This document shows positions 6,951 to 35,073 of a stretch of 64,000 nt of DNA, one piece after another. Below the pieces are notes generated by a model that ran no database searches, was not told the DNA's origin, and saw only the letters and a program-made list of their open reading frames with translations. This DNA is from Branchiostoma lanceolatum. Its lineage: Eukaryota > Chordata > Leptocardii > Amphioxiformes > Branchiostomatidae. Each line of letters begins with the position of its first letter. Positions within the stretch are counted from its first letter, which is position 1. A program made the position numbers and the translations under genes. The stretch lies in NCBI RefSeq assembly GCF_035083965.1, contig NC_089722.1, forward strand, positions 38,859,958 through 38,923,957, written 5' to 3'.

Positions 6951-7607
6951 TTGTTCATTTCTCTTTTTCCTTCCAATCTTATTATTTATTCGTTTGTGTT
7001 TGTTTTGCTTCTTGCATTCTGTTTTAGCTTGGGTCTCTCTCTTACTTCAACCTCGAGTTTTTTTCGTATTTTTGGTTGCTTTTCTCTTTGACTTGGTGCT
7101 TTCTTCCCTATAATCATATTGAGTAGATTAACCCTTGATTAACCAGACCCAAGTTTCACCTTTTTGGTTCACACCTCTATTAGAACTCTTTTCATCTGGT
7201 GCAAGGTGCCACACCTCTGTTTTATAACGCTATGAGAAATGCTGAAAAATTGTTTTCTAACCTGAAAATTTCTGACAAATTTTCCCAGCACATGAACTAC
7301 AAAGCAGGCAGCCGGCATGAATTGTCATCGTTCATATGGTTACAAATATTATTGTATTTCTTTTGGTGAATCAGGGATTTTTGCGGGGTCTAAATTCTAA
7401 AACAATTCCTTGTCGTTTTTAGTCTTTCGTAGACCACCAACAAGGTAAGAAAGGTAGATAAAGTTACATTTTAGCCCCTTTTTAACACCGAGTACAACTA
7501 AAACTGGTCACCATCCCAGGTGTGTCGCATCACACAATGGCACAAACAAAAAACATGGTGTGTGTATTCACTCGGGTCTACCGCATTTATCAAAGGATTA
7601 ATCCAAC

Positions 7608-7646
7608 CAAGGAGGTTATCCTTGATCCTACCAAGGAACCTCCTTG
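7608..7646. mobile_element. 39-bp palindromic micro-element (CAAGGAGGTT...AACCTCCTTG)
   Basis: The insert starts CAAGGAGGTTATCCTTG and ends AAGGAACCTCCTTG. It is flanked by ATCCAAC (7601-7607) and ATCCTAC (7647-7653), a 7-bp target duplication with one mismatch. It is one of a set of similar inserts in this window at 7913, 8098, 22461 and 26619. Confidence 0.6.
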
Positions 7647-7912
7647 ATCCTACTTCCCCTCTTCAACAGAGGAGTTAGCCAGCCATATAGTTAACATATG
7701 TGACATGTACTTGGCCTAGTTTGGGCAAAAACCTTGCAAAAACATAGCCTTCACCTGGCCTTCCTACGGGGCGTACGGATCGTAGAATTTGGAAAAAAAA
7801 CTCCTTGAAAAAAAGGAATACTTTGTCAGGACAGTCAGTACGGTAAGGTTAACATTTCGCCAAACTTCCCTGGCAAATCATTTTTCCTATTTGCCAGCGT
7901 AGTCCGTCTGGT

Positions 7913-7950
7913 CAAAGAGGTTTTATCAGGAACTTGATAAAACCTCCATG
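7913..7950. mobile_element. 38-bp palindromic micro-element
   Basis: The ends AGAGGTTTTATCA and TGATAAAACCTCC are inverted repeats around a short centre. The flanks are an exact 7-bp direct repeat, GTCTGGT (7906-7912 and 7951-7957). It has the same terminal sequence family as 7608-7646. Confidence 0.68.
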
Positions 7951-8097
7951 GTCTGGTAGAGATTAGCAAAAATAAAGGTCTACATTTATTCATTGTTCTC
8001 CAATACAAGCTGAAGTACTAGTAAGTATCCTTTTTTCGGCCAATTTTTGTCATATTTTTCATTCAACGGGAAATTCTGGTAGAGAATATACGCAAAA

Positions 8098-8126
8098 CAA
8101 AGGAGGTTTTATATAAAACCTCCTTG
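8098..8126. mobile_element. 29-bp palindromic micro-element
   Basis: AAGGAGGTTTTATATAAAACCTCCTT is a perfect palindrome, bounded by CA and G. The flanks GCAAAA and GCAAGA (8092-8097 and 8127-8132) are an imperfect 6-bp direct repeat, so the duplication evidence is weaker than for its relatives. It lies about 50 bp before the left boundary of the tandem duplication. Confidence 0.5.
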
Positions 8127-8177
8127 GCAAGAGTAGCCTGTGTGCATTGTTTCTCTCAATTAATTGAGCCTACATAC

Positions 8178-9902
8178 AATAATGCATGTTGGTCGAGGCT
8201 TCTGAAAAATAGTACAAGTTGGCCAAAATGGGTCAATATAATTGGCCAGGATGCCCAACCCTTTATACCAAGGTGATTATAAAGACCTCCTTGTTTTACA
8301 CCAACCATTTACCTTTAAGCTTTATCTCTGCTTTTTACAACCGAAAGAGTCTAGTCTATCAGTTCTCAAGACGAAAGAAAAGTTTATGCGGATTTCAATA
8401 CAGCCTCGTTTGGTTGTCAAGAGAAAAACAGGACCTTTTGACCACCGGAACTGACGCAGATCAAATTTCGCAGCAAGTGCTAAAACAACACCACAATTTA
8501 ACATACGCAAACATGAGTCGTGAAATCTGAGGAGTCGGGCAGGTGAAATGAATGAATTAATGATTGTTTTTCTTGATCTAGCGAGGATTGGATGATCCCG
8601 GTCCACTTTTTAATCATCGATTCATGTATTGATAAAACGTCGTTTTTTACATCCGTTTTGTCGACGCTATTATTGTCTTTCGGGAAACTTTGTTTTCTTC
8701 GTGATTTTTTCAGCTACACGGACACGTTTATATTGTTATCCGTGTTCGGAATGATCAACGATTGGTTATCTTTCTATAACATCCTTGGACTGTGTAATGA
8801 CAAATATTTACTGGTAGCTACCGCTATTTCAGCGTACATTTGTTTAGTTCTGATTTTGTTTCGTTAAATCAATCCTTTATAATGTCATTGGTTAAATCAT
8901 TTCTCATTTTCGTCGGACTTTCCTTTTGTGTTTTACAGAAAGGACACTCGTGTGACATCTGTCCATTTTTAACACTCTTGTTATAATCATAAAGTAGCGC
9001 TTAGAAGTTAAATACAAAGCGTGGATTTACAACTCTGCGTGTCGTCACACCTTTCTTTCACCTAGCTTTGTGGAGAAAATTTGCCTACGATTAAAACGCG
9101 ATGTGTGTTTGGAGATCCTCGGCTCACAAATACACAATATGTTTGCGGGTTCATCAATGCGATCCTCGAAGTTCAATACAGTCGGGGACAATGGAACTAC
9201 CTGGAGGTACGTTTATCTCGTTGGACACATAATGGGTGATGTAATTACCTAGTGTGTAGCATACGGGCTCGCCATTCGCGCCTCATCTATATGCATGAAG
9301 GGTCTAGACTTGACCAAACACAAAAGATGTAGCGGGTACTAATCTGTATTCAATTTTTTTCTGTCATTTTTTTTTTCAAAAGTCGATTTCCTGATCGCAA
9401 ATTAGATTGTGGCAGGTTTGAAGACAACTTCTGTGCCGGAATCGTCCCGCCATTTTCCTGCCGTCAAGCGATAGAAATGCAAAACAAACAGTCTCATTTG
9501 CATGGTGTAAAACAATAGGTGGCTCCCGTGAGGGGACGCGTCCATTCTGGTGGCAAGACAACTTCCTTCCCAGCATCCGTGTGTACACAGAAGCACGCAG
9601 ACAAGCTTCAGGAAAGGTCGGTCTGAGGACGCCTTTCTTATTCTTTTTTAACCTTTAAACTAACTTCATTTAGCGTACAGTGACACACAGGGAGAGAGGA
9701 TATCTTGAAGCATATGCCCAAGTCGAACCAACCCGGTGAGCAGCCGACGAATTGGATTATTCACCGAGATAGTAGAAGGGGCGAGACAGAACCCGACGAC
9801 AACCGGGACAGTCGAACAGCGGCCGCAGCCCTTCTCTTCTTCTGGTGTTTCCCACTTCTCGGAATCTTCTTCGTCTACGTTCTGTTCGTTCATCTCAAAG
9901 CC
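8178..9902 (+). promoter_or_regulatory. 5' flank of coiled-coil gene copy A (presumed promoter and 5' UTR)
   Basis: The stretch contains no convincing coding exon. Frames of 60-103 codons occur identically in unit B only because the DNA is identical. An octamer-like ATTTGCAT lies at 9496-9503 and is kept in copy B near 18479, followed by GC-richer sequence towards the start codon. The transcription start cannot be placed from sequence alone, and the promoter role is inferred from position only. Confidence 0.3.
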
Positions 9903-12900
9903 ATGGAGCCGGACCAAGCTAGAAGACCTCCAACGGGAAGCCGCCCTCCTCTAGTCCGTAGCGGGTCTGCTGCGATCAGGCGCCCGGTGGCCCCTCCCCC
10001 CAGCCCGCCGCAGCGGCGCCGACAACGCCACCGGCCCCGACTCGGCTCGACGGGCAGCAGCACCGGAGAGTCCACCTCCAGTAACTCCGGCTCATATGTG
10101 AGCATGCAACTCGGGGAAGAGAGCGACATGTACGATAGGATCATGGCCCTGGAAGATACGGTAAGATAAGTTTGCTTTTTTCCCCTGAAAATCACGACAT
10201 TTGCCGGGAATGTTTTGCGCGTCGGTATGTAGTCTTGTTTGCTTTGCCACGTTTTGGCGGGTTTGCTGCAGAAAGAATGCTTGTTCAGAAATATTGTAGC
10301 TAGTCAAAGTTTTTATAATCTAAAAGTACAACATTTGGACAAAGCTATGCAAAGGAGGCCAATGGTGGCTTTTTAGTTTTCATTATTAAGCAGAAATTTT
10401 CCTGATTTTGCACAAGAAAGGCACGCTGCACCTGTTATCAGCTGGTTCCCATACAGACAACGCGAAGTCCAAAGATCACATACTAAGTATTTCTCACAAA
10501 TTAAGCTATTTCTGTCACTGAGAACTTGAAGTGGTGTTCTCTGTGTTGTTGTTCGAACTTGCTTCTCTTAAAAAAATGCACACCTAAATGAGAAATTTGA
10601 TTTGATTAGTTATTATTTAATCAGGTCAGGTTATGCAGGTCTTACATGTTGTCTTCGTTCTAGTCATTTAGCGCGAACCAAAAGGTGGCGACAAGTACAA
10701 TTTTTATGTTCCAAATGATTTTCACCATGATCTAACAGAAAAGAAAAATTCCCTAAACGACTTTGGTGTATTGAATCAGGATTTATGATCACTTAATGAA
10801 GGTTTTAGTCCCCCATGAGGGTTTGTGAAGGGTGGGGTGCGTCAGTCCTCTATCTAGGGACAGATCTTGAGCCTTTCTGCAATTGTTCAGGGGATTACTG
10901 AGGATAGCGTCATCACGGGACCTGCCGCGTGGCGCGCCATTTTTTCAACCATTCTTTTTATCATCATTACTTTTTCATAGCAAATTACCGAAAAGCGAAG
11001 GCACAGTAATCACAATCAAAAGCTTATTCAGAAAATATACAATCTCATCACGAAATAAAAACGTAAGAACCAATTCTACATAATTATGACACGCCCTTTT
11101 CTGCTCCTGTTCCCAGTTTTATGTACTCTTTGCCAGACTACTGTGTTTGAGTTCTGAAAAAAACAAACAGAAATTGACCAAATCATGAGGCTGAATAATT
11201 TTATAGAAGGTTCCCGGGCCATATGTATACATAGTTTTTATTTATTTTTTCATGCTAACCCAGTCGATGGTTATTACCCTGCTCCTAAAAAGACTTCTTT
11301 TTTCCAACCCAAAGACTCTGTTTCCAGTGGAAACTTGATCAGATTTTCCGCTGGTTTAGTTCTTACTCCGTCTCTTCTGAAGAAACGTTCACGGACAAAA
11401 GAGTTTGTCTGTCCTTGATTGATACACGGCGCGCTGCTGTGCTGATCATCTTCTCACACCTCACCGTCCCGTTTTGTTTGCCGACCGGTTCACGACCGAC
11501 GCCTTTCCCCATCTCACCTGGGCGTCATGCGCTAATCACGCGGCTCGGTGACAGGAGACTGTGCCCTGTGTTTGAAGTTTCAATTAGCGCCTCCGACTTC
11601 AACCTCGCGCGTCTCTAGCGTGCTAAATAGCCTACCTCGCTAGTTTAACATCCGGCGTGTAGACATATTGAAATGCTTTGTGTAGATTACGTATTTTTGG
11701 TCTGGTTACTACTTTTTGTAGAAAAAATGGGAGCCATAAGAATGCAGTACCGATATGAAGCAATAACCAGTAGAACCAGAGAATAGAACGATGTTTTTTT
11801 TAAATGTAGTGAATCCTGCTATAGTGACGCACTTCTGTGGCAAGCTGTTGAATATGGCATAATGGCGACTCACAAAGTTCTCGTCTACACTTCAAATGAC
11901 GCTTGTCCCAAAAACGATGTTCATATCATACCGACGTTAACATCACCTCTTGTTTTCACACCTCTTGATAAAACGGTCTAAGATTTGATTTTCAAATCAG
12001 ATACTAAATACTAGTATACTCCTGAGTATACTGCACGAAGTAGCTAAAAGTAGCTGGTGCTAAAGAGGCCGTAGAAAAATTGATATTGCTAAATAACATA
12101 CTACATGTAGTAAACAAACCTCCCAGCAAAAATATATTTTCTTCTGTTTCTACAGTAACAAAAAAAGCGAGAAGTTGAATTTGTAAAATGTTTGTGTATT
12201 TTTTTGTACTCATTACAATGTATCTTGTTTTGTTGTAACTTGTAATTCGTCCACTGTGTCAAAAATTTGTAATGACGGTCTTTATTCCTTCATTTATCTG
12301 TGGAAAGCGATGAATTCCTGAAGCTTATTGTATAACTCCTTTTACCCACAGGTGACCACACTGACGACCGAACTGAAGCAGGCGCGGACGGTCCACCCCG
12401 CCAAACACATCGTGCTGAGGATGATGAACGAGAAGGCGACGGAGATCGGCCGACTGACGGGGCAGCTCGCCCTCAAGTCCGAGGACAACGTCCTGCTGCT
12501 CGAGGAGAACGAGTCCCTCAAAGTCGAGAACGAGGTGAGCGCTTCTTGTCGTAACAACGAAAGTCGATAGGAGGCGCACATATGACGTGCACATTTGGGA
12601 TCACAAAGTAATCGGCGTAATGACGGGAGGGGGGGGGGGGCGGTTAGAGTTAATAGCCCTCGGTTGAAACCTTGACCAGGTCATACATGTAGGCACCCTT
12701 CAAATCCATCCCGGGTCATACCAAACACTTGGTACATTCTGCTTTGCCTGCTTAACACTCAGCGCTTGTATTATAAGAATTAAGAGCATGGCAGTTGAAC
12801 CACACCACTACCAACGGACAAGAAGTACATGTAGTAGATTGTAGTTGTCTTTGTGGCCCACTTAAAACTTCCTTAAGATTCTCTAGAAATTCCTAAGATG

Positions 12901-13356
12901 TCGTTGAATTTCTTAAAGATTCTTAACGCTGATCTATATATATCTTTACAGGCTCTTAAAGTTCAACTGGTCGCGCTGCGGACAGCTCTAAGCGTCATTC
13001 GGCCATTCCCAGTCCACCGAGGCGATCAGCAGACGGCGGCGGCGCGGAGGGCAGCCTACATCCGATCGCAGAGCGCCCCCTGTCCGGTTGACAGCCACGA
13101 TGACCAACAGACAACAGCAGCGTCTCGAAGGGCGGCATTCGGCCGATCCAAAAGTGCTCCAAGTCCTACAGCCAGTCAAGACGACGTCTTTCTCCCTTCG
13201 GTGTCTGAGATGGACGAGGTCGACTCTGCGGAAACAAGACGGAAGCGTTTCAACAAACAGAACTCTCAAAGGAGGGGTTCCTCCATCAAGAAAATGTTTA
13301 GGAAGTTTCAAAGGATGAGCAGCTACCACGGCAGTGCCACGAGTAAAAATGGTTAA
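9903..13356 (+). CDS. Coiled-coil, Arg/Ser-rich protein of unknown function, copy A (3 exons, 281 aa)
   Basis: Coding exons are 9903-10160, 12352-12534 and 12952-13356, all joined in phase 0 with GT/AG sites; TAA ends the frame. I chose the ATG at 9903 because its context (AAGCCATGG) is strong. Residues 1-75 are Pro/Arg/Ser-rich. About 76-160 form a heptad-type coiled coil running through MALEDTVTTLTTELKQ and LLLEENESLKVENEALKVQL. About 169-219 hold two repeats of the pattern DQQTxAAxRRAAxxRSxSAP. The basic tail has RRGSS, a possible PKA-type site. RSQSAP (185-190) and RSKSAP (212-217) fit the mode-1 14-3-3 consensus R-S-x-pS-x-P. I do not recognise the family. A cytoplasmic phospho-regulated scaffold is an inference only. 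The frame is also open upstream to 9714 with a hydrophobic segment. Copy B differs at three residues. Confidence 0.75.
10161..12351. other. Intron 1 of copy A
   Basis: There is no coding sequence beyond the flanking exons. At 10829-10836 it carries TGCGTCAG, the empty target site of the element inserted in unit B at 19837. The remainder matches intron 1 of copy B with substitutions and small indels. I see no other structure in it. Confidence 0.6.
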
Positions 13357-14159
13357 ACATAGGAAATGTTGGTCAGATATCTAAAAAAAGAATGCATGTT
13401 TGTGTTGTTAAACGACCAATATACTGAATGTATAATCTATAAGCAGATGTTGGGGAGGCTATATCTTTGAGTTTTCCTAGCTGCCCCGTCTGCAGTTTAA
13501 CACAGACAAGGATAGTTGAGAATACGGAACGATTTGGCCTCCCCAACATCTACTTGGGGACCATAATAGGCTGTTAATTATGTAGAATTTCTTGTGGCTA
13601 ACACCTTTCTTTGTAAGCAAACGCTAACGTGCTCTATACGTTACACTATAGCATGCCCTGTAGTATGGTAGTTCAACAGTGTGAATGCTGTGCTTAGACT
13701 TAGAAGAATCACAAAGACCTGCCATTTTTTGACTTATCAAGTTTCAATTATCAAATTCAATTAATAATAATATCTTTTTTTCCAAATTGAAAATTATGAT
13801 TTCGGAAATACGCCGGTGTTGTTGAATTTACAGAGGTTTTATTTTTAAATCGATTCCAATGGATTTGTGTGAACAATTGTCTCGTTAATTATATTTTATG
13901 CACGTGTAATATCAATGCGTAATAACAGCGTAATATCAATGAATTGACTAAAAACGTTATGCAATTTTTCAAATCGGTTTAATGGTTTGAACTTGTTAAT
14001 GGTCCAGCTGTGTTACCTACTTTTCAGGATCACAAATTGGACGAGACCGAGTCATACAAAGTGCGTGTTACTTATATCTTGTTTAAAAATCAATTGTCTG
14101 CTTATCACAACTCGTTGTCTTGGATTTATTGAGTGCCCATTGGAAGTATGGCAGGGAAT

Positions 14160-14219
14160 AGCCCCCCCCCCCCCCCCAATATATACGCCGCCGTTGAAGG
14201 AAGTCTGCGAAGGAGGATA
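14160..14219. mobile_element. Internally deleted TAGCCTCC-family MITE remnant in unit A
   Basis: A 16-C run followed by AATATATACGCCGCCGTT, AGGAAGTCTGCGAAGGAGG is the right half of the MITE family seen at 359-588. GGCAGGGAAT before and GGCAGGGTAT after look like its target duplication, so only the left half was lost. The counterpart at 24026-24083 shows that it predates the duplication. Confidence 0.75.
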
Positions 14220-14234
14220 GGCAGGGTATAGAAT

Positions 14235-14574
14235 TTAAAGGAGTCCTAAACTCCAGAGGGGGGAGTTATTTTCCAATAGATAATGATTTTAGAAAGTACA
14301 AATGAATTCTTATTACAGTATACGATAAAGCACCCACTAGTCCCGTGCGCATCAATTCATGCCCAAACTATCCATGATGAAGGAAGTGAGTATATGTATA
14401 GGGATACATGGGTAGAGTCTGCACGGGTTTAGTGAGTTACATATTATTTTACAAAACACACCTTGTGTAATTCACAACAAGCGGGATTCTGTAAAAAGTC
14501 GGTTGGTTATGTATTATTTGATACATAATCTAGTGGAAAATAACAGTCCCTTCTAGAGTTTAGGACTCCTTTAA
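14235..14574. mobile_element. TTAA-flanked MITE (piggyBac-like), unit A copy
   Basis: Ends are TTAA-AGGAGTCCTAAACTCC and GGAGTTTAGGACTCCT-TTAA (with a small variation inside), giving inverted repeats of about 40 bp around a 260-bp non-coding interior. A TTAA target duplication is the hallmark of piggyBac-mobilised elements. The same insertion is in unit B at 24095-24435, so it was present before duplication. Confidence 0.75.
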
Positions 14575-15767
14575 CAGCAGTCTAGAGATTTACATAGTTC
14601 ACATATCTCCTTGTCTGTAAAAACCAAGCAAAATTTTTAAAAGTTGGCCAAAGAAAAAAACAATTTTCCCAAAATTTTGTGTGGTGGTATAATAAGCTCT
14701 TGGCCCAAACTTACAAAAATGGGAAAGTTTTAGGTCTGTGGTCACCGGTTGCCATGGTAATAGCCATTTTTCAAAATGGCGGATTTTTGCCTGGTGAAGG
14801 CCTTAGTCTAAACCAAAATAGACCGTCTTTGAACTTCTGTAGCTCTCACGAATTAACAGATATTTCATTGATTCTAACACATGTTGTTACCCATGTCCTA
14901 ATAAAAAATGGCATAAAGTTGATCTCAAACAGTTATATTTGTAGTGAGGTACAGCAGAGGTTTAAAGATGACTTGTTTTCGTAAATCTCCAAAATTGACA
15001 AAAAGCCTTTTTTGACCATTTTCAGTGATCAATGGCTCCTTCACCGGCAGATCAATTTGGTTGATTTTTTGTACAGTCGGTGTGAATCTTTATGTGCATC
15101 ATGTTTAAAACGAAGTTTGTGCCCGCAATGGGAAGAACCGCGGTGGCCCCAAGACTAAACCATTGATTCCATTGTAAACGGATTTCAGCCACTGAATCGT
15201 GTGCTAAATGCACATAGCTTGTCCATAGATGAAGACAAATATACTTTTCTTTCATATTCTCAGATAGCAAGCAACCTACCTTGCACGTGCAAATGTAAAT
15301 ATCTGCAGGATTGACGACTGGTTGTCATGGTAACAGCCATTTTCCAAAATAATGGATTTTTACATTGCCATTAGTCTTGCCCCAAATAGACTACATTTGA
15401 CCCTTTTTTACCCCAAAAAGGTAATGAATACTTTTACAGCATACGTCCTTAGCTATATCTCAACAGACAAAATAAAGCCAAATTGTATTCAAAATGATTT
15501 AGTAGAGAAGTGCAAGGGACACTGAAAGATGGCATGCTTTTGTTCATTTTCATCGATGGCCACTTAAGTCTGTTTTCAGCTATCAATAATTCCTTTCGTC
15601 CTTATCAAATACGTTTTAAGACGAAACACTAACCTACATAATACCTGAAAACGACTTTCGGCACACAGATGTATTGACTACAGTGATTACAGAACATTTC
15701 TATTTTCCTTAGAAATTACCTATGTTAGAAACGATAGAATATTAGTTAACTTGTAGGAGTGCCTTTC

Positions 15768-15855
15768 CCAAAGGCACTACGTCGGGCGCAAATTCGATCC
15801 CGGGTCCCATTGATTGACAGCCGCGTGCTCTACCACTTGCGCCACACGACCCCAC
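15768..15855 (-). mobile_element. tRNA-derived SINE head, present in unit A only
   Basis: On the minus strand, TGGCGCAAGTGGTAGAGCA resembles a tRNA A box and GGGATCGAATTT a B box, spaced as in a tRNA of about 73 bases. The arms do not fold into a full cloverleaf and the acceptor strands do not pair, so it is a SINE or tRNA pseudogene rather than a working tRNA. The region has no counterpart in unit B. Confidence 0.6.
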
Positions 15856-17113
15856 TACCTTGTTGATACGGCTTTAAAACTTTAGAATATTCGAAGGCTG
15901 CATTTTAAGTGGCTGATTTGATATGTAGGATTGACGCACTTTGAAAGTCGAGAGGGGGGTCTTTTTCACAAGAATTTACCATATTTGAAAAAGCAACTGA
16001 AAATTGTTCACACTCATTGTAGTACGACTCCCATATAAATTACTCAGTAGTAGATTTAATGTGAATCAGAATTTAGTAACTGTACATTTGCTTTGTGCCA
16101 TTTACTAGATTCACGCATTTACATTGACAATCAATACAAGGATGTCCGTTAAGTGAGAAAAGTGCCTAAGACAGTCAGGAAATATTTGATAGCTATGAAC
16201 TCAGACATCTATTATGATGCTAGGGTAGGGGTGGTGGTTGCAGTTGGTGGCAGCAATGAAGAACTCCACCAAAGCTGGTAAAACAAACCCCCATGAGTAG
16301 CCTTTTGGCCCGGAAAGGGTCGCATGCTAAGGTAGCCCACCACCCCACTAGCCCAGCCAACCTTTTCCGGGAACCCAGTCTACTGTCGGATATGTAACGA
16401 CACAATGTAGGTACCAGGAAGTTCAACTTTGATCTCTGACCTGTTTTAACCCCAGTTTACGATGAAGCGTGCGTACCGTACGCGTGAGCAAGAGACTGTC
16501 ACAGTGTCAGTCCTGTAGGTCGAGTTACTTGTTCGTAAAAATACCTGGCTTCTCGCTTTGAACAACCCCTAGCACGAGATGACACGCGTAAGTAACAGTA
16601 CTGTAAACGATCACTATCAAAATTCCCTTGTTATTTAACTGCCGGCCTTTGTATTCTTTTGGAGCCTGAACCACCATACGACCTAATTCTCAGTTACTAA
16701 CATTTTCACCTGTAATAAAAAAAAAAGTTCTATATCTAATAGTAATACACAGATGTAACGTTATGTCTATGTGTAACTTTGTAGATATGTCTTTCAATTC
16801 AATTTATCAGTGATACGGATACGTGTACAATCAAAGTGACATAATATGTATCTCTACGTTAAATTTGTAGATATGTCTATGACTTAGATTCATTATTGAT
16901 ACGGATATATAAATATACGTCTGCAATCAAAGAAAGATTCTGTACAGGACTTTCATTCATTGCCTTTATACAGCTCGGCCTGCTTTCGCTGCTGGGCGTG
17001 GGTTGAGCCCAGGACCGCTGACCCCGTGACACGACAGGTGGTTAAACAACAGGTTTCACTTCCGCGTAGAGCCGACTGGGTTCATAGCAGGGTCACTCCA
17101 ACGTTTAACGGTC

Positions 17114-17188
17114 ATGGCGGCCACGGGCTCGCACGTACATGGACTGACCCTCCCCTTCGCAATAATGCATGTTGGTCGAGGCTTCTGA
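17114..17188 (+). pseudogene. Truncated exon 1 of the DUF1349 gene at the duplication junction
   Basis: The sequence from about 16955 to 17159 matches the 5' flank and exon 1 start of the DUF1349 gene (26960-27193). It keeps the ATG at 17114 in the same context (GGTCATGG) and codes MAATGSHVHGLTLPFA, against MAALGSHVHGLTLPFA in the intact gene. At 17160 it passes into the start of unit B, reads eight foreign codons and stops at 17186-17188. It could make only a 24-residue peptide. The duplicated promoter region may still be active upstream of unit B. Confidence 0.85.
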
Positions 17189-18885
17189 AAAATAGTACAA
17201 GTTGGCCAAAATGGGTCAATATAATTGGCCAGGATGCCCAACCCTTTATACCAAGGTGATTATAAAGACCTCCTTGTTTTACACCAACCATTTACCTTTA
17301 AGCTTTATCTCTGCTTTTTACAACCGAAAGAGTCTAGTCTATCAGTTCTCAAGACGAAAGAAAAGTTTATGCGGATTTCAATACAGCCTCGTTTGGTTGT
17401 CAAGAGAAAAACAGGACCTTTTGACCACCGGAACTGACGCAGATCAAATTTCGCAGCAAGTGCTAAAACAACACCACAATTTAACATACGCAAACATGAG
17501 TCGTGAAATCTGAGGAGTCGGGCAGGTGAAATGAATGAATTAATGATTGTTTTTCTTGATCTAGCGAGGATTGGATGATCCCGGTCCACTTTTTAATCAT
17601 CGATTCATGTATTGATAAAACGTCGTTTTTTACATCCGTTTTGTCGACGCTATTATTGTCTTTCGGGAAACTTTGTTTTCTTCGTGATTTTTTCAGCTAC
17701 ACGGACACGTTTATATTGTTATCCGTGTTCGGAATGATCAACGATTGGTTATCTTTCTATAACATCCTTGGACTGTGTAATGACAAATATTTACTGGTAG
17801 CTACCGCTATTTCAGCGTACATTTGTTTAGTTCTGATTTTGTTTCGTTAAATCAATCCTTTATAATGTCATTGGTTAAATCATTTCTCATTTTCGTCGGA
17901 CTTTCCTTTTGTGTTTTACAGAAAGGACACTCGTGTGACATCTGTCCATTTTTAACACTCTTGTTATAATCATAAAGTAGCGCTTAGAAGTTAAATACAA
18001 AGCGTGGATTTACAACTCTGCGTGTCGTCACACCTTTCTTTCACCTAGCTTTGTGGAGAAAATTTGCCTACGATTAAAACGCGATGTGTGTTTGGAGATC
18101 CTCGGCTCACAAATACACAATATGTTTGCGGGTTCATCAATGCGATCCTCGAAGTTCAATACAGTCGGGGACAATGGAACTACCTGGAGGTACGTTTATC
18201 TCGTTGGACACATAATGGGTGATGTAATTACCTAGTGTGTAGCATACGGGCTCGCCATTCGCGCCTCATCTATATGCATGAAGGGTCTAGACTTGACCAA
18301 ACACAAAAGATGTAGCGGGTACTAATCTGTATTCAATTTTTTTCTGTCATTTTTTTTTTCAAAAGTCGATTTCCTGATCGCAAATTAGATTGTGGCAGGT
18401 TTGAAGACAACTTCTGTGCCGAAATCGTCCCGCCATTTTCCTGCCGTCCAGCGATAGAAATGCAAAACAAACAGTCTCATTTGCATGGTGTAAAACAATA
18501 GGTGGCTCCCGTGAGGGGACGCGTCCATTCTGGCGGCAAGACAACTTCCTCCCCAGCATCCGTGTGTACACAGAAGCACGCAGACAAGCGTCCGGAAAGG
18601 TCGGTCTGAGGACGCTTTTCTTATTCTTTTTTAACCTCCAAACTAACTTTATTTAGCGTACAGTGACACCCAGGGAGAGAGGATATCTTGAAGCATATGC
18701 CCAAGTCGAACCAACCCGGTGAGCAGCCGACGAATTGGATTATTCCCCGAGATAGTAGAAGGGGCGAGACAGAACCCGACGACAACCGGGACAGTCGAAA
18801 AGCGGCCGCAGCCCTTCTCTTCTTCTGGTGTTTCCCGCTTCTCGGAATCTTCTTCGTCTACGTTCTGTTCGTCCATCTCAAAGCC

Positions 18886-21800
18886 ATGGAGCCGGACCAA
18901 GCCAGAAGACCGCCAACGGGAAGCCGCCCTCCTCTCGTCCGTAGCGGGTCTGCTGCGATCAGACGCCCGGCGGCACCTCCCCCCAGCCCGCCGCAGCGGC
19001 GCCGACAACGCCACCGGCCCCGACTCGGCTCGACAGGCAGCAGCACCGGAGAGTCCACCTCCAGTAACTCCGGCTCATATGTGAGCATGCAACTCGGGGA
19101 AGAGAGCGACATGTACGATAGGATCATGGCCCTGGAAGATACGGTAAGATTAGTTTGCTTTTTTCCCCCTGAAAATCACGACATTTGTCGGGAATGTTTT
19201 GCGCGTCGGTATGTAGTCTTGTTTGCTTTGCCACGTTTTGGCGGGTTTGCTGCTGAAAGAATGCTTGTTCAGAAATATTGTAGCTAGTCAAAGTTTTTAT
19301 AATCTAAAAGTACAACATTTGGACAAAGCTATGCAAAGGAGGCTACTGATTGCTTTTTTAGCTTTCATTATTTGGCAGAAATTTTCATGATTTTGCACAA
19401 GAAAGGCGCGCTGCACCTGTTATCAGCTGGTTCCCATACAGACAACGCGAAGTCCAAAGATCACATTTCTTACAAATTAAGCTCTTTCAATCACTGAGAA
19501 CGTTTGTAAGTGGTGTTCTCTGTGGTGTTGCTTCGACTTGCTTCTCTTAGAACCAAAACTTAATATCTAGATGAGGAGTTAAATGTCGACTGTAAGTTAC
19601 TAGTACTATTTGATCAGGCCAGGTTATGCAAGTCTTCCATGTTGTCTTCGAACTAGTAGCTTGGCGCGAACCAAATGTTGTGACAAAATATATCAAATTT
19701 TCGTCTCAATTTTCAGCATGATCTACAATGAAAGAGGGAATCCCTAAATGGTTTTTGGTGTAGTAAGTCAGATTTATGATCGCTTAATGAAGGTTTTAGT
19801 CCCCCATGAGGGTTTGTGAAGGGTGGGGTGCGTCAGGGTTACTAGACTTTTCGCCCCCTGACCCGTTCGTCCCCGGGTCCTTTCGTCCCCGTCATGGACA
19901 TTTCGTTCTCGGATGACACTTGTCTCACAATTACAAGTTACTCAATTTTCATCATAACATTTCATCAAGCTTCTCAAAAAACCTTCACTGTTGCTTTCTC
20001 ATCAAGTCTTTCACGTTGGAAAACCGACACTAACATGACTAAAGTGACGCGCGAGCGGCGAGGGACATCATGATGTTGCTGCCGCCGTCGCGCCCGCCAT
20101 CTTGGTTGTTTACGCATGTTGCAAATCGCTCGTGGGCGCCTTTTACGGAGTTTGTATGAGTAAATAAGCTGACTGAAATGAAATTTTGACAAGAAAATTG
20201 ACTGTATGGGACTGTATTTTTAAAAACGCTAGGATATTCATGTTGCTAAATTCACCGATGCCCAAGACCGACTGGAAGTGTATCGCGATCGAAGTATGAC
20301 ATGTCTGGAAACGGCAAGTACTTCGCCGGCTAACACTTTAACTGCTGGAAAATACTTTCAAAGTAATATCTAATCACGTATAGAATAATACATGATAAAA
20401 AAACTAGTCATTTAGGGTTTAAATGTTGTTAAATGGGAGGACGAAATGCCCATGATGAGGACGAAAGGACCAGGGGACGAACGGGTCAGGGGGCGAAAAG
20501 ACCTGATCCCTGCGTCAGGCCTCTATCTAGGGGCAGATCTGCAATTGTTCAGGGGATTACCGAGGATAGCGTCATCACGGGACCCGGTTCTGCCGCGTGG
20601 CGCGCCATTTTTTCCAACCATTCATTTTATCATCATTACTTTTTCATAGCAAATTACCGAAAAGCACAGGCACAGGAATCATAGTCAAAAGCTAATTCAG
20701 AAAATCTACAAACTCATCACGAAATAAAAACGTAAGAACCAATTCTACATAATTATGACACGCCCTTTTCTGCTCCCGTTCCCAGTTTTATGTACTCTTT
20801 GCCAGACTACTTTGTTTGAGTTCTGATAAAAGAACGCACACAGAAATTGACCAAATCATGAGGCTAAATAATTTCATAGAAGGTTCCCGGGCCATATATA
20901 TACATAGTTTTTATTTATTTTTTTCATGCTTGTAACCCAGTCGATGGTTACTACCCTGCTACTAAAAAGACTTCTTTTTTCCAACCCAAAGACTCTGTTT
21001 CCAGTGGAAACTTGATCATATTTTCCACGGGTTTAGTTTTTACTCCGTCTCTTCTGAAGAAACGTTCACGGACAAAAGAGTTTGTCTGTCCTTGATTGAT
21101 ACACGGCGCACTGCTGTGTCGATCGTCTTCTCACACCTCACCGTCCCGTTTTGTTTGCCGACCGGTTCACAACCGACGCCTTTCCCTATCTCACCTGGGC
21201 GTCATGCGCTAATCACGCGGCTCGGTGACAGGAGACTGTGCCCTGTGTTTGAAGTTTCCCGACTTCAATATCGCGCGTCTCTAACGTGCTAAATAGCCTA
21301 CGTCGCTAGTTTAACATCCGGCATATTGACATGCTTTGTGCAGATTACGTATTTTTGGTCTGGTTGCTACTTTTTGTAGAAAAATTGGGAGTCATAAGAA
21401 CGCAGTACCGACATGAAGCCATAACCAGTAAAAAAAGACAGAGAAGAAAACGATGTTTTAAAAATGCGATGAAGCCTGCTCTAGAGACGCACCTCTGTTG
21501 CAAGCTGTTGAATATGCTGTTGAATATGGCATAATGGCGACTCACAAAGTTCTCGTCTACACTTCAAATGATGCTTGTCCCGAAAAAGATGTTCATACCG
21601 ATGTTAACATCACCTCTTGTTTTCACACCTCTTGATAAAACGGTCTAAGATTTGATTTTCAAATCAGATACTGAATATACTACATGTAGTAGCTAAAAGT
21701 AGCTGGTGCAAAATAGGCCGTAGAAAAATTGATATTGCTAAATAACATACTACATATGGTAAACAAACAACCCAGCGAAAATATATTTTCTTCTGTTTCT

Positions 21801-23004
21801 ACAGTAACAAAAAAGCGAGAAGTTGAATTTGTAAAATGTTTGTCTATTTTGTATTCATTACAATGTATCTTGTTTTGTTGTGACTTGTAATTCGTCCAAT
21901 CTGTCAAAAATGTGCAATGCGGGTCTTTATTCATTCATTTCTCTGAGGAAAGCGTTGGACCCCGAAGCTAATCGTATAACTCATCTTACCCACAGGTAAC
22001 AACACTGACGACTGAACTGAAGCAGGCGCGGACGGTTCACCCTGCCAAACACATCGTGCTGAGGATGATGAACGAGAAGGCGACTGAGATCGGCCGGCTG
22101 ACCGGGCAACTCGCACTCAAGTCCGAGGACAACGTCCTGCTGCTCGAGGAGAACGAGTCCCTCAAAGTCGAGAACGAGGTGATCGCTTTTTCTCTTAACA
22201 ACGAAAGTCGCTAGGAGGCGCACATATGACCTTTTTTTTTATGATCACAAAGTAATCGGTGTAATGACGGGAGGGGGAGGGGCGGTTAGAGTTAATTGCC
22301 TTCGGTTGAAACCTCGACCGGGTCATACATCCCGGATAATACCAAACACTTGGTACATTCTGCTTTGCCTGCTTAACACTCAGCGCTTGTATTATAAGAA
22401 AGAGCATGACAGTAAGTTGAACCACACCACTACCAACGGACAAGAAGTAGTAGATTGTAGCATATAAAACCTCCTTGATTGTAGTGGTCTCTGTGGCCCA
22501 TTAGGGCTATAAAAACTTCCTTAAGATTCTCTAGAAATTCCTAAAATGTCGTTGATTTTGTTTAAGATTCTTAACGCTGATCTATATATATCTTTACAGG
22601 CTCTTAAAGTTCAACTGGTCGCACTGCGGACAGCTCTAAGCGTCATTCGGCCATTCCCAGTCCACCGAGGCGATCAGCAGACGGCGGCGGCGCGGAGGGC
22701 AGCCTACATCCGATCGCAGAGCGCTCCCTGTCCGGTGGACAGCCACGAGGACCAGCAGACGACAGCAGCGTCTCGAAGGGCGGCATACGGGCGATCAAAA
22801 AGTGCTCCAAGTCCTACAGCCAGTCAAGACGACGTCTTTCTCCCTTCGGTGTCTGAGATGGACGAGGTCGACTCTGCGGAAACAAGACGGAAGCGTTTCA
22901 ACAAACAGAACTCTCAAAGAAGGGGTTCCTCCATCAAGAAAATGTTTAGGAAGTTTCAAAGGATGAGCAGCTACCACGGCAGTGCCACGAGTAAAAATGG
23001 TTAA
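18886..23004 (+). CDS. Coiled-coil, Arg/Ser-rich protein of unknown function, copy B (3 exons, 281 aa)
   Basis: Coding exons are 18886-19143, 21996-22178 and 22600-23004, with the same lengths, phases and splice sites as copy A. The protein differs from copy A by three conservative changes only: V29A, D197E and F210Y. The coiled coil and both RSxSAP motifs are unchanged. Intron 1 carries a 674-bp transposon not present in copy A, intron 2 a 17-bp insert, and the 3' flank a 199-bp hairpin. Near-identical protein despite many intron indels means purifying selection since the copies separated, which holds whether they are paralogues or two alleles placed in tandem. Function is unknown. Confidence 0.75.
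19144..21995. other. Intron 1 of copy B
   Basis: It matches intron 1 of copy A apart from the 674-bp TIR element at 19837-20510 and small indels. No coding sequence is supported. Frames of 60-89 codons are shared with the copy A intron and lack any domain. Confidence 0.6.
19837..20510. mobile_element. hAT-like MITE (674 bp), insertion private to unit B
   Basis: The terminal regions are inverted repeats, with CTTTTCGCCCCCTGACCCG starting 10 bases in and its exact complement near the other end. The complementarity continues for about 70 bp through CTTTCGTCC and CATTTCGT. The 8-bp target duplication is TGCGTCAG (19829-19836 and 20511-20518). Unit A has a single TGCGTCAG at the same place, which is the empty site. 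It has no transposase frame. An 8-bp duplication is typical of hAT transposases, so the source enzyme is inferred. Confidence 0.9.
22461..22477. mobile_element. 17-bp micro-insertion (CATATAAAACCTCCTTG), unit B only
   Basis: It lies between two copies of ATTGTAG (22454-22460 and 22478-22484). Unit A has one ATTGTAG and no insert (near 12838). The inserted bases match the right half of the palindromic micro-elements at 7913 and 8098. It may be a half-deleted element or the remains of imprecise excision. Confidence 0.72.
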
Positions 23005-23162
23005 ACATAGGAAATGTTGGTCAGATATCTAAAAAAAGAATGCATGTTTGTGTTGTTAAACGACCAATATACTGAATGTATAATCTATAAGCAGATGTTG
23101 GGGAGGCTATATCTTTGAGTTTTCCTAGCTGCCCCGTCTGCAGTTTAACACAGACAAGGGTA

Positions 23163-23361
23163 CGCCAAAAATAATTACTCAAGCAACTGGATAAGATTTT
23201 GAAACAGTCAGACGTTTCAGACAGTATCCACTGTCTTTCGTCAGTGACTGACGAAAGACAGTGGATACTGTCTGAAACGTCTGACTGTTTCAAAATCTTA
23301 TCCAGTTGCTTGAGTAATTATTTTTGGCGTATCTTATTACCTGGATGTCTAACCTTCATCA
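23163..23361. mobile_element. 199-bp hairpin retroelement-like insertion with hammerhead-like core, unit B only
   Basis: Two arms of about 85 bp are almost perfect complements meeting near 23236 (CGTCAGTGACTGACG). They are followed by a 30-base single tail ending CTAACCTTCATCA. The 13-bp flanks ACAGACAAGGGTA (23150-23162 and 23362-23374) are a target duplication, and unit A has one copy (ACAGACAAGGATA). Each arm contains CTGACGA, an AGACAG/CTGTCT stem and GAAACGTC, in the order of a hammerhead core. A related half copy is at 56353-56450. The variable-length duplication and tail suggest retroposition, possibly with Penelope-like machinery. Confidence 0.8.
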
Positions 23362-23374
23362 ACAGACAAGGGTA

Positions 23375-26300
23375 GTTGAGAATACGGAACGATTTGGCCT
23401 CCCCAACATCTACTTGGGGACCATAATAGGCTGTTAATTATGTAGAATTTCTTGTGGCTAACACGTGCACCTTTCTTTGTAAGCAAACGCTAACGTGCTC
23501 TATACGTTACACTATAGCATGCCCTGTAGTATGGTAGTTCAACAGTGTGAATGCTGTGCTTAGACTTAGAAGAATCACAAAGACCTGCCATTTTTTGACT
23601 TATCAAGTTTCAATTATCAAATTCAATTAATAATAATATCTTTTTTTCCAAATTGAAAATTATGATTTCGGAAATACGCCGGTGTTGTTGAATTTACAGA
23701 GGTTTATTTTTTAATCGATTCCAATGGATTTGTGTGAACAATTGTCTCGTTAATTATATTTTATGCACGTGTAATATCAATGCGTAATAACAGCGTAATA
23801 TCAATGAATTGACTAAAAACGTAATGCAATTTTTCAAATCGGTTTAATGGTTTGACCTTGTTAATGGTCCAGCTGTGTTACCTATTTTTCAGGATCACAA
23901 ATTGGACGAAACCGTGTCATACAAAGTGCGTGTTACTTATATCTTGTTTGAAAATCAATTGTCTGCTTATCACAACTCGTTGTCTTGGATTTATTGAGTG
24001 CCCATTGGAAGTATGGCAGGGCATGGCCCCCCCCCCCCAATATATACGCCGCCGTTATAGGAAGTCTGCGAAGGAGGCTAGGCAGGGTATAGGATTAAAG
24101 GAGTCCTAAACTCCAGAGGGGGGGAGTTATTTTCCAATAGATAATGATTTTAGAACGTAAAAATGAATACTTATTACAGTATACGATAAAGTACCCACTA
24201 GTCCCGTGCGCATCAATTCATGCCCAAACTATCCATCATGAAGGAAGTGAGTATATGTATAGGGATACATGGGTAGGGTCTGCACGGGTTTAGTGAGTTA
24301 CATATTATTTTACAAAACACACCTTGTGTAATTCACAACAAGCGGGATTCTGTAAAAAGTCGGTTGGTTATGTATTATTTGATACATAATCTAGTGGAAA
24401 ATAACACTCCCTTCTAGAGTTTAGGACTCCTTTAACAGCAGTTTAGAAGATTTACATAGTTCACATATCTCCATGTCTGTAAAAACCAAGCAAAATTTTA
24501 AAAAGTTTGCCAAAGAAAATAATCAATTTTCCCAAAATTTTGTTTGGTGGTATAGTAGGGCCTTGACCCAAACTTACAAAAATGGGAAAGTTTTAGGTCT
24601 GTGGTCACCGGTTGCCATGGTAAAAGCCATTTTTCAAAATGGCGGATTTTTGCCTGGCGAAGGCCTTAGTCGACAGTACAAAATAGACCATCTTTGGACT
24701 TCTGTCACTCCTACTAGTTAACTGATATTATATTGTTTCTAACATATGTTGTTACCCGTCTTAATAAAAGACATGACATAAAGTTAACATGTTTGTAGTA
24801 AGCTAAAGCAGAGGTCTATTAAAAGATGAGTTGTTTTCGTAAATTTCCAAAATTGACAAAAAGCCTTTTTGGCAAATCAATTTGGTTGATTTTTTGTACA
24901 GTTATTGTGTTAAATTCTATATACATGTACATCATATCAAATAAGAGATTTGGGCCCGTATTGGGAAGAACCGTGGTGGCCCCGAGACTAAACTATTGAT
25001 TCCATTGTAAACGGATTTTAGCCACTGAATCGTGTGCTAAAATGCACATAGCTTGTCTATAGAGGAAGACAAATATACTTTTCTTGCATATTCTCAGGTA
25101 GAAATCAACCTACCTTGCACGTCAAATGTAGATGTCTGCAGGATTGACGACGGGTTGCCATGGTAACAGCCATTTTTCAAAATGGTGGATTTTTACATTG
25201 CCATTAGTCTTGCACCAAATATACTATATTTGACCTTCTTTAACCCCGCCAAGTTAATAGATACATCGCCTATAGCCTTAATCCTTAGATATATCTCAAC
25301 AAAAAATAAAACCAAATTGTGTTCAAAATGATTTAGTGTAAGGGACACTGAAAGATGGCATGCTTTAGGTTAACCTCCTTGGTAATTTTCATCGATGGCC
25401 ACTTAAGGCTGTTTTCACTATCAATAATTCCTTTCGTCCATATCAAATACGTTTTAAGACGAAACACTAATCTACATTATACAGTGATTACAGGACATTT
25501 CTATTTTTCTTAGAAATTGCTTCATACAATAATGAGCAATGGCTGCATTGGCATATTTTTCTTTGGAAATGAGAAACTAATTGAAGTTACTAACTAAATA
25601 ATCTGACTAGACTGAAACAATCCAAAGCAGAGTACACTCGAAGGAGCGAAAAGATGATGTGTAAGGAGTTGATACACATGTGCACAACGTACGGCACTTT
25701 GAAAATGTTGATAGGCTACCTGCCATTTGGCCATACTAATTATATTATATGGATGACATCACGCGTGCATCAATTTTCGCCCGTTTCCAAAAAATATGTT
25801 TTCGGCCATGCTGTAAATCATACAAAGCAGCTGCAAACTGAGAAAATATATGCTAAAACGGATACTAATGTCAAAGGAATGTCAATTGGAATGCCAAAGA
25901 AGAAGATGTGAAAGAACAAAAAATGAAGCATCTATTATTCTATATAACATATTCTGTGTGTAAATTTTATTAATCCTTCCTGACCAGGCAGATTTCATAA
26001 TGAAGGGAACTTTTTTTGCAAAACTTTTTTTATTCGCACGCTCGCATCCATTTGGGGTTCTCAGAGCATGTCATCCATTTTATCAGATCAACATGCCTAA
26101 TGGTGAATAAGCTATCGATCTATTACAGCAATATCAACACTCGGCAATAGATATCATGATAATCACCCATCTTTTCCGTCAAGGAAATTCCTTTAGAGAC
26201 CAAACCCCCATGAATAGCCTTGGTGCCCGGAAAGGGTCGCATGCTGAGGTAGCCCACTATAGCCCAGCCTATCTTTTCCGGGAATCCAGTCTACTGTCGG

Positions 26301-26618
26301 ATATGTAACGACACCATGTAAGTACCAGGAACGCCACCCGTAGTTCAACTTTGATCTCTGACCTGTTTGAACCCCAGTTTACGATGAAGCGTACCGTACG
26401 CGTGACCAAGAGACTGTCTGTCCGGACCTGTAGGTCGATTTACTTGTTCGTATCAAAATACACCGCCTTCTCGCCTTGAACAACACCTACATGTAACACG
26501 AGATGACACGCGTAAGTAACAGAATACTGTAAAGGATCATAATCAAAATTCTATTATGCTGAAATTGGACCAACCTGCGTCACTATACGATCCCACATTT
26601 TCACCTAGTACCTGTAAT
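23375..26618. other. 3' flank of coiled-coil gene copy B
   Basis: It matches the 3' flank of copy A up to about 25520 and again from about 26200. The part between is different sequence of unknown origin, AT-rich, with an 85-codon frame at 25654-25911 that has no domain or splice context. A small AACCTCCTTGG insertion near 25371-25384 is absent from copy A and may be another micro-element, but its duplication is unclear. Confidence 0.45.
24026..24435. mobile_element. Unit B counterparts of the MITE remnant and the TTAA MITE
   Basis: A 12-C run at 24027-24038 and GCGAAGGAGGCTA at about 24068-24080 repeat the TAGCCTCC-family remnant. From 24095 to 24435 is the TTAA-AGGAGTCC...GGACTCCT-TTAA element. 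Both correspond to insertions at 14160 and 14235 in unit A, with point differences and a shorter C run. Confidence 0.75.
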
Positions 26619-26732
26619 CAAGGAGGTTAAATATACAAGGTTAAATATACAAGGAGAAAGGACACAATTTGCCTTCTTTCAGGAGAGTGCGTTTCAACAA
26701 CTTCGCGTCAAGATGTATATTTAACCTCCTTG
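26619..26732. mobile_element. 114-bp MITE with CAAGGAGGTT ends, unit B only
   Basis: The ends CAAGGAGGTTAAATATACA and TGTATATTTAACCTCCTTG are perfect inverted repeats of 19 bp. The 7-bp target duplication is CTGTAAT (26612-26618 and 26733-26739), and unit A has a single CTGTAAT at the matching place near 16713. The termini are the same as in the 17-39 bp micro-elements, making this the longest member here. Confidence 0.88.
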
Positions 26733-27147
26733 CTGTAATAAATATGTATGTCTAACGTTATGTTTAACTTTGTAGATATGCCTTTTAAAACAATTCATTA
26801 TTGATACGGATATACGTGTACAATCAAAGTGACATGTTAATTTAACTCTACGTTAATAACTTTGTCGATATTTTCTGGATTCAATTTATTATTAATACGG
26901 ATATACATGTGCAATCAAAAAGGAAGATTCTGTACAGTACTTTCATTCATTGCCTTTTACATTATAAATAACAGCTCGGCCCGCTTTCGCTGCTGGGCGT
27001 GGCCTCAGCCCCTACCGCTGACCTCGTGACATGTGACAGGTGGGTAAACAACAGGTAAAAGTCAGAACGTTTCACTTCCGCGTAGAGCCGACTGGGTTCA
27101 CAGCAGGGTCACTCCAACGTTTAACGTACGGTCCTGAGTTGACGGTC

Positions 27148-30100
27148 ATGGCGGCTCTGGGCTCGCACGTACACGGACTGACCCTCCCCTTCGCCACCAC
27201 GTTCGACACCAGCCAGATGCGACCGGAGCTGAGCTGGCTTCACGAGCCGCAAGACTTCATGCTACGGGCGGACGGAACCAACGGCATCCGCGTCACACCG
27301 GTGAGTTTTAGAAGTTACCTGTTCAGGGTCGAATTACATATAGCGTTACATTGTACGTTACGCCATGCGTGTCACGTCTACAAGGCACTTTCAATTGTTG
27401 CTACGAGTTTTAGATGTTTCTCTTCTATCCTTGGACACATTTTTTATTTCAAGACAGACATCACTAAGGATCATACTTCAGTCATCATAATTTCCTTATG
27501 AGAACCGATTGTCAATAATTCAAACACAAAATGAACGACCAATAGGTCGTGGGGCGGAAGTGTACAAACTTCCGTGTGTCTGTGCGTCCAGACTTTTATT
27601 TTTTCACACGCTCGCATCAGTTGTGAGGGTCTCAGAGGATGTCATCCATATAATCAAATCAACATGGCCTTATTTGTTAACTTATTTAATCACTAAGTTG
27701 TAGTTTTCAGATGACACTTGTGGTTTAAATTATTCATTAGTAATTTTTGTGTTTATTTTTCCTATTTCAGAAAGAGAAGAGTGACTTCTGGAGGAAGTGA
27801 GTACACAAAGTGTAACTAAATTATTTTATTAGCAGAAGTTAGGCAATCTCTATCAAAGTTCCTGGTTCTTGCATTCACTGCTTTTATAAGTCTGATTTCT
27901 AAATCTCATATACATGTATGAGGTTTTAAAGAATTTATCAGGCTACATCATAGTCATGTGATTGTGAGTGCAAACACCTAATCTCCAAGCAGATGTAAGG
28001 ATCTGGCTCATTCTCAGTGTTTTCAACTTTAACTTAAGATACCCCCAAGTGACCCTGCGAGGGGCAAAGTAGGGGGGAGGAGGTCCCAGGCTAAGGCGGG
28101 CAGGCCTCCAGCCTGGCGCGGAGTGACTCAACAGTGGGAGATGTAACAACTGTGCAAGGCAGGGCGTTCCACTGGGGGATAGTGCCGGGGAAGAATGATA
28201 AAGTTATCTTGTATCTTGTATCTAGGTATAAGAGGAGGCAAACTGCAATACCAGTAACTAGTATTTAGTGTTGCAAAAACTGGCATAGAACACTGAGAAT
28301 ACACCATATCCTTACATCTGCTTGGAGTTTTGTATAACAGATAAGGGTGTGGTCACATTCGTTGTACAGTTGTTGTACAATCGCAAACTAAGGGCATCTT
28401 TGCAACAATTGTTCATATATCGTACAAAATTCAGCTGTATTCTTATCGAAAAGACTAAGATTCTTGTTGGCGGTTGGTTCTGCTTAAAAATCCTACAACA
28501 ACAAAATCCTATGAAGACTAACAATGACTTAGCCTGGGTAGCCTCCTCTGTAGCCTGTGTTTACACAAGCTCTCGGCCGGAGGTTACTGACCCCCACCCC
28601 AAGTGGTTACAGGACGGGCCGGACGCTAGGAGCGCGATTTGTCTGGCTACCATCCTCCCTAGTAATACCACTGGCTGGTAAGCAAGCAGAAAGGGAGAGC
28701 CAGCGGTAACCACGAAGGATGGTACCCAGACTAACAAAAATGTTGAAATACTAGAGGCGAGTAGAAACAGACTCCTGGCTCCCGGGGATCGAACCCGGCC
28801 CGCCAGTCCACAGGCCGCACGCCTTAACCACTAGGATAGAAGGTCTAGACCAGCTAGACTGGTCAGTTGGAGGTGCTTGAACCCCACTATAACAATGTGA
28901 CCACGAGTTAATTGTTCCCAACAGAACGTACTACGTGCCGGAGCTGATCGCGGATAACGGTCACCTGCTGTACACGCCCGTCACAGATCCCGACTGCGTC
29001 ATGGAGACCATGTTTGAGGTGTCAGCTGTCAACCAATTTGACCAAGTAAGCTGAAGAATACTGTAGATACATTTATTTTCGTGTGGATTCAATTTCGTAG
29101 TAGGAGTGGAAAGGTTAGCCTCCGTTGCAGGCTTTCAGGCTTTCCCACGGCAATTTTTCAACCTATCGGGGCCAGGTTCTGTATCTGCTTTAGGCCCCGT
29201 ATCACACAGCGGTTACAGGATCACAGCGGTTACAGGACCCCAAGCAGATACGAGGCCTCAAGCAGATACGGCCCCCCAGCCAAAGAACCTGGCCCCAATA
29301 AGTTGAAAAATAGCAGTGGGTTAGCCTGCAACGGAGGCTATGGAAAGGGTGTGTTTTAAGGCAGTGTTTTAGTTTTGCGGTCGAAACAATTATCATTATT
29401 ATGGCAGGGTGTCATGACTCCTGAGGAACCCCTTGCCTGACTTTCACAATACTGTAGCACAAGTACACATATTTGTACCTTATATGTACAAACTGCTATC
29501 AGATAAAAGCAATATTTCAAGATTTACGGTAGACCGCATGCCTAATAGTCAAGTTATATATTGATAAATCCAGTGTGGTGTGCAACTCTATACTACCGGT
29601 AGTATCTACGTATTTTTTTTCATATCACCAAGAAGATGTAAGGATTCTCTACACTGAGAATGAGCCTACAATGTACATCTGCTTGGAGATTAAATTTTTC
29701 CATCCTTCAACACAGGCAGGTCTGATGGTGCGGTACGATCATGAACACTGGCTGAAAACGGTGAGTTTCTCATGCTGTTAAGGTTTGATAACATTCTTTA
29801 TAATAATGATAATGTACTGATGATATAGGATTGACTTCAGCAAGTAAGATACATGCTATCAATCTTTGGTAAGGGCACACCATTTTAATTTCTTGGTTAA
29901 TGGAATTTAAAAAAAAATGCTAGATTGGAAAATCAACATGAAAACAGAATCTCAGAGGAAAGTTTGTACTTTGGCGCACACAGTTTCAGGGGGTGAACAG
30001 GGTCAGGTGCAAGTTTTCACCCCAGCCTTCTGTTTTCGTGTTTTTTTTTCCTAGAATTAAAAAAAAAATTAGTTAACCAAGAATCTAAATTGGTGTGGCG

Positions 30101-34997: not shown

Positions 34998-35073
34998 AGA
35001 AGCTCAGATTCCTTCTACCTTGTTAAGAGTCTCCCTGTAGCTCAAGTCTATAAGCTTTGAACTGAAAAATTTG

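Follow-up and report, generated by a model that had tools for sequence, protein, structure and literature searches.

Inserts with shared ends and 7-bp target duplications

We analyzed a 64,000-nt stretch of the Branchiostoma lanceolatum genome (contig NC_089722.1, positions 38,859,958 to 38,923,957 of the forward strand; "the window" hereafter), in which a group of very short inserts with the same end sequence lies in and next to a tandem duplication. Inverted ends resembling CAAGGAGGTT, with at most one mismatch each, form close pairs at 7608-7646, 7913-7950, 8099-8126, and 26619-26732, while a single copy of CAAGGAGGTT was found at 22468-22477 within a 17-bp insert (22461-22477); none of these features is assigned to a strand. 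The 7-mers on the two sides agree at all seven positions for the 7913, 22461, and 26619 inserts, at 6 of 7 for 7608, and at 5 of 7 for 8099. A target duplication of 7 or 8 bp is a trait of the P superfamily of transposons, and the duplication here is 7 bp and exact at 7913, 22461, and 26619. The initial annotation had counted three inserts with an exact or one-mismatch 7-bp duplication, and the number is actually four (7608, 7913, 22461, and 26619); it had also started the third insert at 8098, which we correct to 8099.

The leftmost feature, a compound candidate scar at 7601-7653, has three target copies around two inserts: ATCCAAC (7601-7607), a 17-bp insert at 7608-7624 (CAAGGAGGTTAT followed by CCTTG), ATCCTAC (7625-7631), a 15-bp insert at 7632-7646 (CAAGG followed by AACCTCCTTG), and ATCCTAC again (7647-7653). 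Since the third target copy, ATCCTAC at 7625-7631, separates the halves, the 39 bp at 7608-7646 are probably two inserts of 17 and 15 bp that share the middle 7-bp target copy. The flanks of the first agree at 6 of 7 positions and those of the second at 7 of 7, and the two inserts hold 12+6 and 6+10 end bases, respectively, each with a 1-base overlap. At 7906-7957, a 38-bp candidate scar (7913-7950) lies between two copies of GTCTGGT (7/7); its ends match in inverted orientation over 16 bases from the tips when two mismatches are allowed, with six bases between them, each 10-bp end has one mismatch, and 17+14 bases agree with the 17-base end consensus. The candidate scar at 8092-8133 is a 28-bp palindrome (8099-8126) between GCAAAAC and GCAAGAG, with 16+16 end bases that overlap by four (ATAT) and a left tip changed from C to A. 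The one at 22454-22484 is one-ended: the 17-bp insert at 22461-22477 (CATATAAAACCTCCTTG) between two copies of ATTGTAG is not a palindrome and carries the right end only (2+17 end bases, of which the first two, CA, could also be the tip of the other end). The common termini and palindromic structure ascribed to the whole group therefore stand for 7913, 8099, and 26619, where both inverted ends are present, while 22461 has one end and 7608 is better described as two inserts.

The longest member (26612-26739) is an insert of 114 bp at 26619-26732 with CTGTAAT on both sides (7/7). Its inverted ends are perfect over 19 bp, its left end recurs inside as a 14-bp tandem copy, and a comparison with the window gave, apart from the match between its two ends, only hits at chance level (E about 0.8). 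Both a short non-autonomous element and a scar with long templated filler are possible origins.

Two of the inserts can be compared with their empty sites, as had been claimed, and we located both sites in unit A of the tandem duplication (8177-17159), which is 89.9% identical over 8770 aligned bases to unit B (17160-27200, right edge approximate). Only unit B has the 22461 insert and, with it, one extra ATTGTAG; the corresponding sequence of unit A is AGTAGATTGTAGTTGTC, with a single ATTGTAG at about 12838-12844. Likewise, the 26619 insert is confined to unit B, and unit A reads through as TTTTCACCTGTAATAA at about 16710-16716, a site judged by eye because the automatic alignment is poor there. 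The empty-site comparison covers 22461 and 26619, since the duplication does not include the other three (7608, 7913, and 8099).

To gauge the chance level, we counted pairs of 10-bp ends with at most one mismatch each, at most 130 bp apart, and with flanks matching at 5 or more of 7 positions, and used dinucleotide shuffles of the window as the control. Four pairs were found in the window and none in any of 60 shuffles, nor in 30 further ones. With two mismatches per end, there were five pairs (the fifth at 46215-46308) versus none in 60 shuffles. With three mismatches, there were eight pairs versus a shuffle mean of 1.95 at 5/7 flanks and six versus 0.13 at 6/7; at 7/7 flanks, five rows were found versus none in 60 shuffles, namely 7632-7646, 7913, 26619, and both copies of a repeat at 14495-14613 discussed below. 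When ends with up to two mismatches and flanks of at least 6/7 were allowed a spacing of up to 20 kb, the only pairs were 7608, 7913, and the 114-bp member. The motif TACATGTA, which would mark lancelet DNA, occurs 22 times in the window versus 1.7 expected and, with the general character of the sequence, suggests an amphioxus host. A generic scan for any short insert with six inverted terminal bases and exact flanks gave one insert with 7-bp flanks (7632-7646; shuffle mean 0.03), two with 6-bp flanks (0.13), and one with 5-bp flanks (0.87), counts so low that the window holds no large stock of other such inserts.

Inner junctions and the excision reading

The five tiny inserts are 15, 17, 17, 28, and 38 bp long and have five different inner junctions; only the element tips are common to them. 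Counted inward from the tips, and limited to half the insert length, the inverted match extends over 6, 6, 2, 14, and 16 bases in the five, compared with 19 in the 114-bp member. Miniature inverted-repeat transposable elements (MITEs) likewise have inverted ends and a target duplication, and the 114-bp member could be one. The tiny inserts, however, share no inner sequence past the tips, and within this one window they are not the many copies alike in length and inner sequence that characterize MITEs. The initial annotation had offered two readings, mobile end-only derivatives or leftovers of excision. Because the tips alone are common, the junction is different in each, and one insert is single-ended, leftovers are the better supported of the two: ends that were trimmed and rejoined would give such a pattern, copies of a single moving mini-element would not. 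We conclude that the tiny inserts are probably excision scars of a cut-and-paste DNA transposon and not ultra-small mobile elements.

We hypothesize that the scars arose as follows. A transposon whose sequence starts with CAAGGAGGTTWWAT would duplicate 7 bp upon insertion, and its transposase would make staggered cuts, one strand being severed at the element edge and the other about 17 nt further in. After excision, a single-stranded tail of the element end would remain on each side of the donor site. The tails could then be joined via short matches, as the ATAT overlap at 8099 suggests, with a few added bases, as at 7913, or after one tail had been trimmed away, as the single 17-base end at 22461 would indicate. 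The two scars in tandem proposed at 7608 may have come from a pair of neighboring excisions or from a template switch across the target repeat. By analogy with part of the fly events, for which PMC2895639 shows it, polymerase theta might have carried out the joining. We favor this overall explanation, scars of a transposon that makes a 7-bp duplication and begins with CAAGGAGGTTWWAT, with moderate confidence.

The Drosophila P element offers a close parallel. Passages of PMC7776569 describe that one strand is cut at the edge of the element and the other 17 nt inside, and that the element carries inner transposase-binding sites. Excision of P{wa} leaves donor ends with 17-nt 3' tails, according to the relevant sections of PMC2895639, whose Table 1 lists 66 joined isolates from spn-A (Rad51-deficient) flies with microhomology, blunt junctions, or inserts of 1-15 bases. 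By our own reading of that table, both target copies were kept in 63 of the 66 isolates, and the sequence between them measures 4-44 bp with a median of 30 bp (4-7 bp in 20/63, 16-27 bp in 10/63, and 30-44 bp in 33/63). The layout of these junctions is the same as here: two target copies enclose at most 17 nt from either end of the element, and the two end pieces meet at a microhomology or a stretch of filler; the 4-44-bp range takes in all five tiny inserts, and the kinds of junction are alike. The fly scars differ in their 8-bp target, in their end sequence, and in coming from laboratory flies, and about a third of those tabulated hold only 4-7 bp. Because our search required long ends, scars of 4-7 bp were undetectable by it.

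To our knowledge, the P superfamily is the only one with so deep an inner cut. It is the most likely source because of this cut and because its member Galileo duplicates 7 bp. Many elements of other kinds begin with CA. The P ends start with CA too, as do the ends here: CATGATG in the fly (given in a passage of PMC2895639) and CATACCTG in the zebrafish element Pdre2. Pdre2, a vertebrate P-like element, has 13-bp inverted repeats of a different sequence. In the excerpts of PMC2775673 and PMC4168063, Drosophila Galileo makes a 7-bp duplication with the consensus GTANTAC or GTATTAC. Of the 30 scored positions in the five target 7-mers of our inserts, 14 agree with GTANTAC, a level reached by 1.0% of random sets (200,000 sets of five 7-mers drawn from the window). 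The likeness to the published Galileo features thus consists in the 7-bp duplication and, weakly supported with n=5, in a similar palindromic target preference; it concerns target features, and Galileo differs in its long inverted repeats and known transposase. The more specific claim, in which the inserts are scars and a P-type element left them, we regard as evenly balanced.

Several observations weigh against these readings. What the window shows is a shared end sequence, a duplicated target, two empty sites, and inner junctions that vary from one tiny insert to the next, and this does not prove excision. The sample is only five tiny inserts, the end consensus was derived partly from these same inserts, and the flanks of 8099 agree at only 5 of 7 positions. 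A cut 17 nt inside would agree with the finding that no side of a tiny insert keeps more than 17 end bases, yet this limit is weak evidence and is partly built into the small insert size. The counting procedure went no further than 17 bases, an inverted match could extend over no more than half an insert, and at 15-38 bp there is hardly room for longer ends. The 19-base inverted match of the 114-bp member exceeds 17 by two bases, which slightly favors a true element or a cut somewhat deeper than 17. Lengths of 15-17 bp account for three of the five inserts here versus 4 of the 63 fly isolates tabulated. Fly P and zebrafish Pdre2 duplicate 8 bp, not 7, zebrafish THAP9 in fly cells left larger flank deletions after excision, and the Galileo consensus was picked after its papers had been read. 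Within the window, neither a full-length element at any insert site nor a parent element with these ends was found, and neither a THAP domain nor a P transposase, whose P-type RNase H-like catalytic domain together with THAP marks the superfamily, was detected among 20 of the 26 open reading frames of at least 130 aa (Pfam, E 0.01; the other six and shorter frames were unscanned).

The literature and other sequence collections gave little further guidance on the source. Among the matches listed for lancelet MITEs and P elements, there was no element with these ends, although it may have been described elsewhere; LanceletTn-2 is mentioned in a passage of PMC5802833, its sequence not having been seen by us. 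Among the papers listed as containing the end sequences as text, none concerned an animal transposon by its title, and one dealt with bacterial conjugative and retrotransposable elements. Three stretches with paired ends in viral contigs were set aside unread as likely chance or bacterial-type matches.

Alternatives to excision scars of a P-type element

The target duplications and the empty sites would suit insertion equally well, as expected if each tiny insert had arrived as an end-only mini-element still mobilized by a transposase. We consider this quite unlikely, as the five inserts have five different junctions and one is single-ended, P elements carry inner transposase-binding sites (PMC7776569), and 15-38 bp would leave scant room for two synapsed ends. 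Its strongest form, in which a transposase binding two fused ends would still move the 28-38-bp palindromes, making them the smallest mobile DNA units known and the single-end 17-mer a later derivative, is very doubtful. It is also unlikely that a longer element was deleted internally, in place, by abortive gap repair without a deep inner cut, so that its ends stayed behind as the inserts. Inefficient gap repair is named as a source of structural variation in Galileo (PMC4168063), and the 114-bp member, perhaps also 46215-46308, could be such a remnant; one would, however, expect widely varying end lengths, whereas five inserts are 38 bp or shorter, and the 114-bp member is, in this small sample, the single well-supported longer pair at spacings of up to 20 kb.

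Scars of another superfamily with 7-bp duplications (Mutator-like, hAT, or Dada) are unlikely as well, although no transposase that could decide the matter was found in the window and Dada duplications measure 6-7 bp. The scars of hAT elements hold a few bases. In the passages of PMC5225508 on Muta1, a Mutator-like element, excision in yeast was precise in most events when target copies were present (e.g. 25/29) and, without them, led mainly to 1-4-bp deletions. RNA genes are the target of many Dada families, though not every copy lies in one; ARAGORN (bacterial code) detected no tRNA in the window, a search that did not extend to snRNA genes. Finally, fold-back or templated insertions at ordinary double-strand breaks would need no transposon, and short inverted ones, mostly about 5-34 bp, occur at yeast breaks (PMC11724301). 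The same 10-bp end at unrelated sites with 7-bp duplications disfavors this origin, which we regard as extremely improbable.

If the tiny inserts are scars of a P-like element, a natural animal genome preserves the equivalent of a laboratory excision assay, and a genome-wide census could show from sequence alone whether the 17-nt inner cut holds outside flies and by which pathway the breaks were joined. This kind of scar is known from the laboratory; several natural candidates within 20 kb make a useful lead but not a novel type of element. An indel that is small, palindromic, and flanked by a target duplication can be such a scar, and it should not be annotated as a mini-element.

Weaker candidates and neighboring features

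Three further sites resemble the inserts weakly. A degenerate 25-bp stretch at 8269-8293 with the flanks TTTATAC and TTTTACA (3/7 ungapped) is a possible older scar that is present in unit B too (17252-17276); if it is a scar, it predates the duplication, and activity would span the time before and after it. A possible one-ended scar at 25367-25381 (AGGTT followed by AACCTCCTTG) is found in unit B only and has no target duplication (flanks 4/7). The pair at 46215-46308 is a possible old 94-bp member (CAAGGGGGTA...CCCCTCCTTG) with the flanks CCTAAAC and CTAAAAC (5/7). A stretch at 7799-7807, in a run of A, was dropped as an insert on account of its low-complexity flanks.

The repeat at 14495-14613, with a second copy at 24356-24475, has exact TCTGTAA flanks and was dropped as a family member because the flanking repeat extends to 10 bp (TCTGTAAAAA) and the left end mismatches. 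Against a simple rejection, its two copies are among the five rows with three mismatches and 7/7 flanks that have no counterpart in 60 shuffles, and it possibly represents a separate family or an old relative. It measures 119-120 bp in both units, and its central part resembles 14235-14300 in reverse complement, with about 80% similarity.

The duplication also contains paired frames of 159 aa, one per unit (12877-13356 and 22525-23004), without a Pfam match at E 0.01, and a 212-bp fold-back insertion at 23150-23361, present in unit B only, whose 85-bp perfect arms lie 1 bp apart and which adjoins a ACAGACAAGGGTA repeat. Elsewhere in the window, an uninterrupted 1361-aa frame on the minus strand (35224-39309) has endonuclease, reverse transcriptase, and RNase H domains and belongs to a long interspersed nuclear element that may be young. 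A 523-aa frame on the same strand (33432-35003) has an RNA pseudouridylate synthase domain and is probably a host gene, and a plus-strand frame at 52-447 matches a galactose-binding (F5/8 type C-like) domain just above the cut-off. A tandem array occupies 30754-31964, with periods of 484 bp and 123 bp and inverted copies within it, and an imperfect palindrome of about 590 bp (80%) lies at 45432-46022.

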